Source: Cytophagaceae bacterium
GTDB lineage: Bacteria; Bacteroidota; Bacteroidia; Cytophagales; Spirosomataceae
Assembly: GCA_026785975.1 (NCBI GenBank)
Contig: JAJAZB010000216.1
Span: 1-34,185 of the forward strand
Direction: 5' to 3'
DNA length: 34,185 nucleotides
This document shows, piece after piece, positions 14,088-23,368 of this stretch. The position numbers and the translations under genes were made by a program. The notes under the pieces are model-generated. The model was not told the origin of the DNA. It made no database searches and saw only the letters and a program-made list of their open reading frames with translations. How positions within the stretch are numbered: the stretch's first letter is position 1; each line of letters starts with the position of its first letter.

Positions 14088-14207
14088 ATTTCAAGCGAGT
14101 GCGTAGCCGGATTCCAGCGAATGAAGGGGCAAAACTACTAAATTCGCTTCCAAACTATTATATCCAAAGCAGTCCTTCAACGTCTGACGATGGGTTCGCC
14201 TCCGTTC

Positions 14208-14513
14208 ATGAACAAACCAATTGAACCGGTTCATTTGACCGCCGCCGCCCAACAGCAGATTCGCGCCATTGTGCGGGAAAAAGGCATCCCGGAATTTTAC
14301 AGCCTGCGAATCGGTCTGCGCGGGGCCAGTTGCGGGGCCTCGTACCTGTTGGGCTTCGATACCCGCGCCGAGGCCGATGAACTGTACGACGTGGCGGGCA
14401 TTTCCATTCTCATCGACCGCTGCCACCTGATGCACGTGCTGGGGCTGGCCATCGACTTTGAAGACGGGGAGGAAGGAGCCGGTTTTACGTTTAACAAACC
14501 GAATATTTCCTAA
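14208..14513 (+). CDS. IscA/HesB-like (Fe-S biogenesis A-type) protein lacking the C-terminal CxC
   Basis: IEPVHLTAAAQQQIRAIVREKG...YSLRIGLRGASCGASYLLGFD...GISILIDRCHLMHVLGLAIDFEDGEEGAGFTFNKPN. Confidence 0.75.
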   Translation: MNKPIEPVHLTAAAQQQIRAIVREKGIPEFYSLRIGLRGASCGASYLLGFDTRAEADELYDVAGISILIDRCHLMHVLGLAIDFEDGEEGAGFTFNKPNIS

Positions 14514-14566: not shown

Positions 14567-14796
14567 CTTTTAACTGATGTTGCGTAAACCTCCCCAGGTA
14601 GGGCCTTGCTCGATGCCCCTTCAAAGTTAAAGTCTTGAATAAAGTAGGTTGAACGATGAGGTTGTCTTTGAAACTTTGTCAAAGTTTAGAACTTTGACAA
14701 AGTTGACGCAGCAGCATACCAACTAATCACTCAATACAAGTAGGGGCTATAGCCCAGAGCGGGGTTTGGGGAGGTTGGCGTAACATCAGCTTTTAA
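14567..14796. mobile_element. MITE-like element (14574-14789) with 7-bp target-site duplication
   Basis: TIRs CTGATGTTGCGTAAACCTCCCCA (14574-14596) and TGGGGAGGTTGGCGTAACATCAG (14767-14789), 20/23; flanking CTTTTAA at 14567-14573 and 14790-14796; no coding capacity for a transposase. Confidence 0.8.
14672..14704. repeat. 15-bp perfect inverted repeat near the centre of the MITE-like element
   Basis: AACTTTGTCAAAGTT-TAG-AACTTTGACAAAGTT; each arm is itself near-palindromic. Confidence 0.85.
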
Positions 14797-14886
14797 GTAT
14801 CTTGTCGACACATCTTATTTTGTTTTGCGGAAAATTGGCATGATTTTTCGGTAAGTACCTTTAATTCACTAACCCAATCCTTTAGC

Positions 14887-17800
14887 GTGCGCTTTCTGAA
14901 GAAGCATAGTTTGTTGATAGTGAGTCTGTTACTGCTTGGGTTAGGTTGGTTGATGTACCTAACCATTGAGCGAGGCCCGGTATCAGCCACCGAAACGCAG
15001 TACCTAACTTCGGTACAACAACACGCGCGCGACCAACTCAGCCGCTCGGAGGCCGACTTGCTGAAGGTGCAGGCCAATTTTTCCATCACGGCGGATTCAC
15101 GATTTATTTACAGTCCCACCCAAACTGAACACCCATTTTTTATTTTTCGCAACGGGAAGATTTTCTACTGGTCCGATCATCTGTTTGTGCCCGAGTACCG
15201 GCAGGTGCGGGGGAATTACCGGGTACGGGCCGTTGACTGGGAAGGCAATCGTTTTTTGGTCAACCGGGTGTTGGTTCGGCAGAAACCCGAGGTCGTGGAG
15301 CTTTTTTCACTGATTCCCATTTATCACAACTACCGGGTTGACAATCAGAACTTAACGCCGGGATACAATACCGAAATTTTTCCGATCGATCCCCAGTCGC
15401 TATCCCTGACCCCCGCCGATCAGCCTCACAACCTGTATTCGGCCCGGAATGAGTTTTTGTTTTCACTGAATCCCCCCCGTCAGGAATCGCTGCACAATCA
15501 ATCGGTGCCCAATGGAATTTTATGGGTTGGCGTGTTGGCGGTGGTATTAATGGGTGCCTACGTATTGCGTTGGGTGCCGGTGTTGGGTCAGAAACGGCAC
15601 TACGAAGTGGGGTTTGGCCTGCTGGCGGCCTATCTGTTGTTGGTCAGAGCGGTGATGTTGTTTTACGGCATTCCGTTCACGTTCGGCGAGAACGAATTAT
15701 TCAATCCTGCTTTCTACGCTTCGTCGGTGTTGTCGCCTTCCCTGGGTGATTTGCTGCTCAATGCGCTGGTGGTCACGTTGTTGCTGCTGTACATTGCCAA
15801 TTACTACTTCCGTTCCCGCGTTTACCGCCGACTGGTCAATCAACCCCGCTGGGTCCGAATCGTTCTGGTGACGATCCTAACCGCACTCAGCTACCTGGTT
15901 TACGAATGGGTTTACCAGGTTCTGAACAACCTGTACATCAATTCCAGCTACGCGTTAGACCTGAAACTTAGCCTATATTTCTACAGCGAAACCCTCAAAA
16001 TAGCCTGCCTGGGGGTATTTATCCTGGTTTCGATTGCGTACTTTCTGGCGCTGCATCTGCTGGCGAGTGTTTTTATACGCCTGAGGACCGGGTGGCTTTG
16101 GGGCTTGCTCAGTGTGATTATGGGCACGGGGTTGGGCGCATTGTTCATTTATCTGCTCGGGCATACCTCACCCAACTGGCCGCTTTTTGCGCTCAACGGG
16201 GGATATTTCGTGTTGTTGTGCCTGACGTGGCTACCCCGTTCGCTGTACTCGTTCCGGTACCAAACGTCGATTTATTTCTTCACCGGGGCCATCGTTGCCG
16301 CGCTCATCGGGGCCAATGTGGTGCATATTCAGGAACTCGGTAAAGATTTGCAGAACAAGCAGATTTATGGCGAAGAATACCTGGCCGAAAACGACAAATA
16401 CGGTGAATTTCTGATCAATCAGATGAACCAGGAAATTCGGCAGGATACCGCCATCCGCCAGATGCTCCGGGATTCGACGCTCTCGCGCGAACGCGTGCAG
16501 CAGCGCGTCAAGCAGGCCCACCTTAAGAATTACTTCGACAATTACGACGTCGAGGTGTCCGTTTTCAATGCCGCCGGAAGCCCCCTCGACAATAGCCCCA
16601 ATGCCCGGCCAATGGCCGATTTTGTGCGGCGCTACCAGCAGTCCCGCTACCGCACCCAGTACCCGAGTCTGTATTTCGTCAACGAGCCGGGCCAAAACTT
16701 CATTAAGGAATACGTGGATTTCGTGATCATTGATTCTACGGGAATACTACGAAATCCGGCGCGAGCCGTAGGAACGTTGCCGGGCCAGGCCCCGGCAACG
16801 TTGGGTGCCATCGTACTCGATTTGAAACTGCGCGATGCCATGCCCAAGCGGGTGTACTCGGAGTTGCCGGTCGATGTCCGGCAGCAGCAGATTCCCGAAG
16901 TTGCCAACGAATATAGCCACGCCATTTACGATGTCCGGGGGCGGCTGTTGTCGAGTGTCGGGGCCTTTAATTACAGGAAAAAATTACCAGCGCAGGTATT
17001 GAATGGAAAGATACTTTTTGAAGAGGGCGTTGAATTGCAGGATTTCCGGCATTTAGGCATTACGGGTGAAAACGGTCGCCGAATCGTTGTGTCATCCGAG
17101 GTCCGGTTTCTGGTGAGTATGCACGCCAGTTTTTCTTTTCTGTTTTTGATTCTGGTCGTATTCATCATTGGGTTGATTATTGGCTACGCGGTCCGGTACG
17201 GCTTTTCAACGAAGCGAATCAATTTTGCCACCAAAATTCAAATTTACCTTCACATTGCTTTTTTACTGCCCCTGCTGCTGGTGGTGGGTATTGCCATGAG
17301 TATCATTGGCGATACATTGCTCAAAAATCAGGAGAAATCGTACCTCGATCAAACCCGTAACGTGAGTACGGTTTTTGCGGGCCAACTCGACGCGTACGGC
17401 AAGGGAACAATCAGCCGGGGCTACCTGGAGCAGGAAGTGAAAAAACTGGGAACCGATGCAGGCCGAGACGTAAGCCTGTTTGACGCTACCGGACGACTGA
17501 TGATTCCGAGTCAACCCGAAATTTATGAAAAAGGATTACTGTCGCGCTATATCAACCCCGAAGCGTACGCCCACATTATCGAAGATCGCGAGCACGAAAT
17601 ACTGCTCTCCGAGGCCCTGGGGAGCCTGAATTACAAAACGGCCTACATGGGTTTGAATGCCCCGGAGGGCAGTTTGCTCGGGGTAGTGAGCGTGCCGTTT
17701 TATGAATCGGCCGGGACTTATGAAAAGCAGATTCTCGACGTTGTTGGGTCCATTCTCAACACGTTTACGTCGGTGTTTCTGGTCTTGCTGGCCTTGTCGT

Positions 17801-18681
17801 ACCTTGCTTCGCGGGCATTGACCGTACCCCTGCGGCTGATTACGCAGAAAATCCGCCGCACCAACCTCGACAAGCTCAATGAGCCGCTCAAGTGGAAATC
17901 GGATGATGAAATCGGGTTGCTCATTGGCGAGTACAACAAAATGCTCGTTAAACTCGAAGACAACAAGCAGGCCCTTTCGCAGAGTGAAAAACAGTCGGCC
18001 TGGCGCGAAATGGCCAAGCAGGTAGCGCACGAAATCAAGAATCCGCTGACGCCCATGAAACTGACGCTTCAGCAATTACAGCGCACACTGCCGACGGATC
18101 CCGCCACGAAACGGACGATCGACCGGGCCTTTAATTCGCTAATCGATCAGATTGACAACATCTCCGATATTGCCAACTCCTTCTCGGATTTTGCGAAAAT
18201 GCCGGTTCCCAAAAACGAACTCTTCGATTTGGTGCCGGTCGTGACCAAAACGGTCGACTTATACGTTGACGACCGGAGTATTTCCTTGCAGACGGACATC
18301 CGGCCCGGCCGGGCCTACGTACTTGGCGACCGGCAGTTGATGAGTCGCACGATTACCAATCTGATTATCAATGCGATTCAGGCCGTGCCCGTCACGCGCA
18401 AGCCAGAATTGAAAATCAAACTGTACAGCAGCGAAGATTTTGTCGTACTCGAAGTCATCGACAATGGATCGGGTATTCCCGAAGCCATCCGACAGAAGGT
18501 ATTCATGCCCAATTTCAGCACCAAAAACGGGGGGAATGGGGTTGGTCTGGCCGTAGCCAAACGGGGCATTGAACACGCAAGCGGAAGTATCTGGTTTGAA
18601 ACTGAAGAAGGTCAGGGCACAACGTTCTACGTCAGTTTACCACTGGCCGACGTGAAGCAGCCGAGGGAGGTAGTTATTTGA
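14887..18681 (+). CDS. Large membrane sensor histidine kinase (NtrY-like, multi-TM, HAMP, HisKA, HATPase)
   Basis: 1264 aa from GTG; multiple TM helices; RALTVPLRLITQKIRRTNLDKLNEPLKWKSDDEIGLLIGEYNKML (HAMP); MAKQVAHEIKNPLTPMKLTLQQLQR (H-box); LIINAIQAVP, EVIDNGSGIP, GVGLAVAKRGIEHASGSI (ATPase). Confidence 0.92.
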   Translation: MRFLKKHSLLIVSLLLLGLGWLMYLTIERGPVSATETQYLTSVQQHARDQLSRSEADLLKVQANFSITADSRFIYSPTQTEHPFFIFRNGKIFYWSDHLFVPEYRQVRGNYRVRAVDWEGNRFLVNRVLVRQKPEVVELFSLIPIYHNYRVDNQNLTPGYNTEIFPIDPQSLSLTPADQPHNLYSARNEFLFSLNPPRQESLHNQSVPNGILWVGVLAVVLMGAYVLRWVPVLGQKRHYEVGFGLLAAYLLLVRAVMLFYGIPFTFGENELFNPAFYASSVLSPSLGDLLLNALVVTLLLLYIANYYFRSRVYRRLVNQPRWVRIVLVTILTALSYLVYEWVYQVLNNLYINSSYALDLKLSLYFYSETLKIACLGVFILVSIAYFLALHLLASVFIRLRTGWLWGLLSVIMGTGLGALFIYLLGHTSPNWPLFALNGGYFVLLCLTWLPRSLYSFRYQTSIYFFTGAIVAALIGANVVHIQELGKDLQNKQIYGEEYLAENDKYGEFLINQMNQEIRQDTAIRQMLRDSTLSRERVQQRVKQAHLKNYFDNYDVEVSVFNAAGSPLDNSPNARPMADFVRRYQQSRYRTQYPSLYFVNEPGQNFIKEYVDFVIIDSTGILRNPARAVGTLPGQAPATLGAIVLDLKLRDAMPKRVYSELPVDVRQQQIPEVANEYSHAIYDVRGRLLSSVGAFNYRKKLPAQVLNGKILFEEGVELQDFRHLGITGENGRRIVVSSEVRFLVSMHASFSFLFLILVVFIIGLIIGYAVRYGFSTKRINFATKIQIYLHIAFLLPLLLVVGIAMSIIGDTLLKNQEKSYLDQTRNVSTVFAGQLDAYGKGTISRGYLEQEVKKLGTDAGRDVSLFDATGRLMIPSQPEIYEKGLLSRYINPEAYAHIIEDREHEILLSEALGSLNYKTAYMGLNAPEGSLLGVVSVPFYESAGTYEKQILDVVGSILNTFTSVFLVLLALSYLASRALTVPLRLITQKIRRTNLDKLNEPLKWKSDDEIGLLIGEYNKMLVKLEDNKQALSQSEKQSAWREMAKQVAHEIKNPLTPMKLTLQQLQRTLPTDPATKRTIDRAFNSLIDQIDNISDIANSFSDFAKMPVPKNELFDLVPVVTKTVDLYVDDRSISLQTDIRPGRAYVLGDRQLMSRTITNLIINAIQAVPVTRKPELKIKLYSSEDFVVLEVIDNGSGIPEAIRQKVFMPNFSTKNGGNGVGLAVAKRGIEHASGSIWFETEEGQGTTFYVSLPLADVKQPREVVI

Positions 18682-22732: not shown

Positions 22733-23368
22733 TTAGTAATCAGGATTCAGGTACGTGTACGGCCATTTTGTCCAGTCATCCACCAAGCCTGCTTTGACTG
22801 GATTATTCAGAACATAGGCAATAATTCGCGCCAGTTCAGCCGCATTGCGTACAATATGGTCATAGCTTTCTTCTTGCCAGAACGCCCCGGTTTGACCCAG
22901 TGAAAGGTTAGCCTTTTTGGCCGTGAATTGCTTGAACGATTGCATGACTTTATGCAAAGGGATTTGTGGGGGAATTTTGCTGATGACCAGGTGAGCGTGA
23001 TTTGGCATAATCGTGTAAGCGATTAGTTCAAAAACCGTTGGGTGGCGGTGATGAAGCGCATCTACCACAAGCCGGGCGATTTCTGGTTGTGACAGCCAGC
23101 GCGGTCCGAAAGCGGCGGCATCGAGTACTTTGTCGAATTTGCCGAAATAGCGTCGGCGTTGCTCGTCGAGCAGATGGAGACGGGTTTCGTAATTAGGTTC
23201 CCTCCGATGAATGGTCAGCAATGCGGTCTCTTGGTCTGCTTTCAACTGCGCAATGGCCTCGCCTGTCAGACTGCCACTAAGCCGAACGTTGACGAGAAAT
23301 GTAGCGCCATCGTGCTGAAAATGAGGAAGATTGCGGCGGTAGTACGTTTTGTACGCCATAATTGACAC
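22733..23368 (-). CDS. REP-associated tyrosine transposase (RAYT / Y1 TnpA-REP, IS200-like)
   Basis: YYRRNLPHFQHDGATFLVNVRLSGSL...FELIAYTIMPNHAHLVI (HxH motif)...FWQEESYDHIVRNAAELARIIAYVLNNPVKAGLVDDWTKWPYTY. Confidence 0.92.
   Translation of the reverse strand: MSIMAYKTYYRRNLPHFQHDGATFLVNVRLSGSLTGEAIAQLKADQETALLTIHRREPNYETRLHLLDEQRRRYFGKFDKVLDAAAFGPRWLSQPEIARLVVDALHHRHPTVFELIAYTIMPNHAHLVISKIPPQIPLHKVMQSFKQFTAKKANLSLGQTGAFWQEESYDHIVRNAAELARIIAYVLNNPVKAGLVDDWTKWPYTYLNPDY

Follow-up and report, generated by a model that had tools for sequence, protein, structure and literature searches.

Bacterial MITEs are 70–300 bp long, with TIRs of 15–30 bp and no coding capacity; they often lie beside genes and form a robust hairpin (PMC3733652). 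The CGTC-tagged REPs have stems of 8–9 bp, loops of 4–5 nt, a constant CGTC foot, a nearly invariable AT at the start of the stem and a CCA-like tail; they have been reported also from Bacteroidetes, and some REPs lie inside longer palindromes (PMC3733652). The window analysed here is a stretch of 34,185 nucleotides from a Cytophagaceae bacterium (contig JAJAZB010000216.1). It contains a 216-bp element (the outer element) that probably houses a degenerate relative (the inner element) of a 115-bp MITE family found elsewhere in this genome. Compared with the bacterial MITEs RUP, NEMIS, ERIC, Nezha and EFAR, the 115-bp family fits the description fully and the outer element fits it except in copy number, having been found once only. 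They differ from these MITEs in that a parental IS was found for neither, and in that the inner element carries a palindrome which is also dispersed alone. This palindrome resembles the CGTC-tagged REPs in being short and dispersed, in often having a GCGTC or GCGCC foot and in flanking no transposase gene, but its stem of 15 bp, its loop of 3–4 nt and its inconsistent foot place it outside that class. As in the REPIN/RAYT systems (PMC3116915, PMC2817692), palindromic units are dispersed in one genome which also has RAYT-like genes; unlike in those systems, no RAYT-like gene is flanked by the palindrome, and TIR-bounded copies with target duplications occur. Literature searches found no published description of the repeats reported here.

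Structure of the outer element

The 216-bp stretch ends in 23-bp terminal inverted repeats (TIRs) that match at 20 of 23 positions, and is bracketed by perfect 7-bp direct repeats, CTTTTAA, as target-site duplications (TSDs; Table 1). These repeats, the TIRs and a double palindrome all lie where the original prediction had placed them, and its statement that no transposase is encoded inside is correct: the 216 bp contain neither a transposase nor any ORF of at least 80 aa. A scripted scan for perfect 7-bp direct repeats directly outside inverted ends (at most 5 mismatches in 20, spacing 60–600 bp) identifies this arrangement as the sole one in the 34-kb window, and returns none in 20 composition-preserving (block-shuffled) windows. 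The centre of the palindrome is 6.5 bp off the midpoint of the element, and GGGCTATAGCCC follows it at about 14744–14755. The 230-nt stretch folds into a single extended hairpin (−91.3 kcal/mol, z = −8.1). No terminator or sigma-70 promoter was found in the element, and a search of the stretch against Rfam gave no family. The element was also inspected by eye as an integron attC site, whose core sites do not fit. Of the features that define a MITE, the outer element, whether taken at 216 bp or at the 120 bp that remain without the inner segment, has TIRs with a flanking TSD, short length and no transposase gene.

Table 1. Coordinates of the outer and inner elements in the window.
Feature	Position	Strand	Basis
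Left TSD of outer element, CTTTTAA	14567..14573	.	repeat scan
Left TIR of outer element, CTGATGTTGCGTAAACCTCCCCA	14574..14596	+	TIR alignment, repeat scan
Left interior of outer fold-back element, ending in the inner duplication	14597..14648	+	end-to-end fold of the 120 bp left without the insert
Left copy of inner target duplication, AGTAGG (AAGTAGG from 14642)	14643..14648	.	fits NNTANN rule of 115-bp family
Inner element, 90 bp; right end ...CAATACA is the family terminus TGTATTG, left end appears without TGTA	14649..14738	+	family comparison
Dispersed palindrome with 15-bp arms, AACTTTGTCAAAGTT-TAG-AACTTTGACAAAGTT, then GACGC on + strand (GCGTC foot on − strand)	14672..14704	.	genome-wide copies
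Right copy of inner target duplication, AGTAGG	14739..14744	.	boundary comparison
Right interior of outer fold-back element	14745..14766	+	sequence; fold of emptied element
Right TIR of outer element, CTGATGTTACGCCAACCTCCCCA on − strand	14767..14789	−	TIR alignment, repeat scan
Right TSD, CTTTTAA	14790..14796	.	repeat scan

Genomic site

The element occupies intergenic DNA, with an iscA-type Fe-S gene (14190–14513; PF01521) before it and a histidine-kinase gene (14887–18681; HisKA/HATPase_c) after it. Many relatives from other genera retain these genes in the order DUF7935, iscA, kinase. In the window the iscA–kinase spacer measures 373 bp, or 150 bp once the element and one duplication (223 bp) are subtracted; among the 12 relatives with a measurable spacer, all of them of other genera, it is 47–176 bp in 11 and 381 bp in one. 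Empty sites in relatives had been proposed as a check, and the shorter spacers support an empty site at the level of synteny, not to the exact base. Because the TIR and TSD statistics are joined by a shorter syntenic spacer in relatives, it is well supported that the outer element is a non-autonomous, inserted MITE-like element with a 7-bp duplication.

A TTGGCAYGATTTTAGG-like motif is located upstream of the histidine kinase (14835–14851) and is conserved in the spacers of most relatives (L137–L162). This motif (TTGGCATGATTTTT, which is TTGGCAYGATTTT-like) starts 38 bp past the right duplication, with the element just upstream of it, and by its likeness is a putative sigma-54 promoter element.

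Search for further copies of the outer ends

The original prediction had the element moved by an IS with CTGATGTTRCG-type ends. When up to 3 mismatches are allowed, such ends are found in the host's draft genome only at the element and at one other site, which by our reading falls within a helicase-like coding gene. Across 223 genomes of the family, the host's included, a search at 2 mismatches yields elsewhere only unpaired matches with 1–2 mismatches, and exact searches of GTDB contigs and of IMG/VR yield one unpaired match each; these unpaired matches are at chance level. The whole element has no match in plasmids or phages. Thus the partner that was to be found through its ends in the host genome did not appear, and an IS carrying these ends was found neither there nor in the 222 other family genomes, GTDB contigs, IMG/VR, plasmids or phages, the end patterns used in these searches being strict. 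The host genome is a draft of 523 contigs and 88% completeness, so repeats may be missing from the assembly. The outer element does not qualify as a repeated family, since its ends occur nowhere else searched, and given the 88% completeness of the draft ‘MITE-like’ is the safe label for a single-copy element. Of the claim that a non-autonomous transposon was mobilized by an IS, the insertion stands, and the IS is unproven because neither a second copy of the ends nor an IS bearing them was found.

The dispersed palindrome

Far from being confined to the 216-bp element, the near-central palindrome forms the core of a repeat dispersed through the host genome. With at most one mismatch, the pattern AACTTTGNCAAAGTT has 78 occurrences there, compared with 3 when the pattern is reversed as a control. 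The double unit of the palindrome is present with a spacer of 3 nt at 11 sites, and at further sites the spacer is 4 nt long. The arms covary, with GC, UA and CG at one pair and CG for UA at another. In the alignment 97% of cells are paired and the covariation score is reached by 0 of 500 shuffles, a figure that is not a probability, the copies being related. A few genomes from two other genera of the family also have the palindrome, and in one of these genera a loop like ..TTAGAACCGGGGCGCGYAGCC.. is common to the copies. The palindrome had been taken as a feature of the 216-bp element itself; it belongs instead to a separate dispersed repeat family.

Several other palindromes were observed. 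The hairpins of L166 and L165 (genus g32) have differing stems and a similar loop, TTTAGAACCGGGGCGCGYAGCC, which suggests a loop-conserved, stem-variable repeat of a related genus. A long perfect palindrome, AAAAAGGCCCGTCCCGAGTACTCGGGACGGGCCTTTTT, adjoins the palindrome copy in L002/L015, just 5′ of it, and the similar CCCCACCCCGAGTACTCGGGGTGGGG is found near a Y1_Tnp remnant in L052 (1124–1149). The window itself encodes an IS200-like Y1_Tnp (RAYT-like) protein of 211 aa (22733–23368, − strand), whose gene is flanked by the inverted palindromes CGGATTGCCTAATCCG (starting at about 22703) and CGGATTAGGCAATCCG (starting at about 23397); together, gene and palindromes have the look of a REP/RAYT unit that possesses a REP of its own.

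A 115-bp MITE family

Alignment of palindrome copies with long loops reveals a MITE family with about 20 complete or almost complete copies in the host genome (e.g. L083–L103), most of them 113–116 bp long and with TGTATTGGKTCACGAGG inverted ends; full-length copies are mostly 93–100% identical to the query. The target duplications are of 6 bp, exact in 10 of the 19 copies with both flanks and matching at 5 or more of 6 positions in 15, and the flanking hexamers have a central TA in 19/19 cases on the left and 18/19 on the right (the NNTANN rule); the DNA around many insertions is of low complexity and could somewhat inflate these flank matches. The family is thus multi-copy, near-identical and non-coding, with TIRs and TSDs, as a MITE should be, and has apparently been active recently. 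No IS-length pair of its TIRs was found in the host assembly and no copy in plasmids, while five IMG/VR matches to the TIR are about the estimated chance level. Beyond the host genome, within the taxonomic family, only the palindromic core was found.

The inner segment and its probable nesting

The right terminus of the 115-bp family is recognizable at 14738/14739, where ...CACTCAATACA is followed by AGTAGG. At the other side AGTAGG stands directly before TTGAACGATGAGG, and this left boundary (TTGAACGAYGAGG, with TTGAACGATGAGG as the left end) recurs beside unrelated flanking DNA at L003. The AGTAGG duplication obeys the NNTANN rule as derived from the other family copies. Taken alone, a repeated 7-mer at some point in 170 bp is nothing unusual. 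Relative to the family TIR, the inner element has TGTATTG at its right end and appears to lack the first four bases (TGTA) at its left. Outside the palindrome it is weakly similar to the 115-bp consensus (p 0.09 for the left flank, p 0.48 for the right). The inner 90 bp share with the family the palindromic core, one terminus and a TA-centred 6-bp TSD. Deletion of 14649–14744 leaves a 120-bp element that keeps its end-to-end fold (z −7.3 against mononucleotide shuffles). Most likely a second MITE, nested in the first and with AGTAGG duplicated as its own target, brought the central palindrome with it, and we consider it probable that this MITE was related to the 115-bp one, old and degenerate, and that it entered a fold-back element of about 120 bp.

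The TIRs and TSD suggest that the outer element would have been excised or copied in trans by a DDE-type transposase recognizing CTGATGTTRCG ends and joined to a 7-bp staggered cut at CTTTTAA. A second transposase would later have put the inner element at AGTAGG; judged from the 19 flanked family copies, this would be a different enzyme, making TA-centred 6-bp cuts. Both elements would have decayed since. A transposase was found for neither.

Discussion

The reading of the original prediction takes the whole 216 bp, palindrome included, as one non-autonomous element moved by one IS. It accounts for the single TIR pair and the single perfect 7-bp TSD that enclose everything, and for the folding of 230 nt into a single hairpin whose apex is the palindrome. 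We regard it as unlikely, however, as dozens of other sites have the palindrome but not the CTGATGTT-type ends, the palindrome occurs also within a different MITE family, and the AGTAGG duplication brackets it where the 115-bp family predicts. It is barely credible that the stretch is not a mobile element and works in the iscA–kinase spacer as a structured RNA or as a hairpin with a regulatory role: the strong folding and the proximity to a motif that recurs in relatives' spacers would suit such a role, but the perfect direct repeats at the outer edges would not, there is no Rfam family or terminator-like site, and the relatives, which retain the gene pair and mostly also the TTGGCAYGATTTT motif, have spacers shorter by about the length of the element.

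Transposition of the REP type, in which a RAYT (REP-associated tyrosine transposase) and not a TIR-recognizing transposase placed the central palindrome, would explain an abundant dispersed hairpin with covarying arms and, at many copies, a GCGTC-like foot, in a genome with RAYT-like Y1_Tnp genes, one of them in the window. Yet no Y1_Tnp locus of this genome has the palindrome nearby, and the Y1_Tnp gene in the window has another palindrome on its flanks. IS200/IS605-type transposition is not known to make a target duplication, unlike what is seen at AGTAGG, and we hold placement by a RAYT to be very improbable. It might also be that different TIR elements have repeatedly acquired the palindrome to form their apex, as in the 115-bp MITE and in the element of the window, a REP-like hairpin acting as a module or preferred landing site from which fold-back MITEs are built; this we think distinctly doubtful. 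The reading we prefer is nesting, with a relative of the 115-bp MITE as the inserted element.

MITEs and nested mobile elements are already known, and the present case is a new, small example. What it documents, from the draft genome of a bacterium, is a nested relic together with a 115-bp MITE family whose target duplications are 6 bp long and centred on TA. It also illustrates how a single window is open to misreading: its striking palindrome is a genome-wide repeat and not a signature of the element that encloses it. Such nested relics are neat but ordinary genomic debris.
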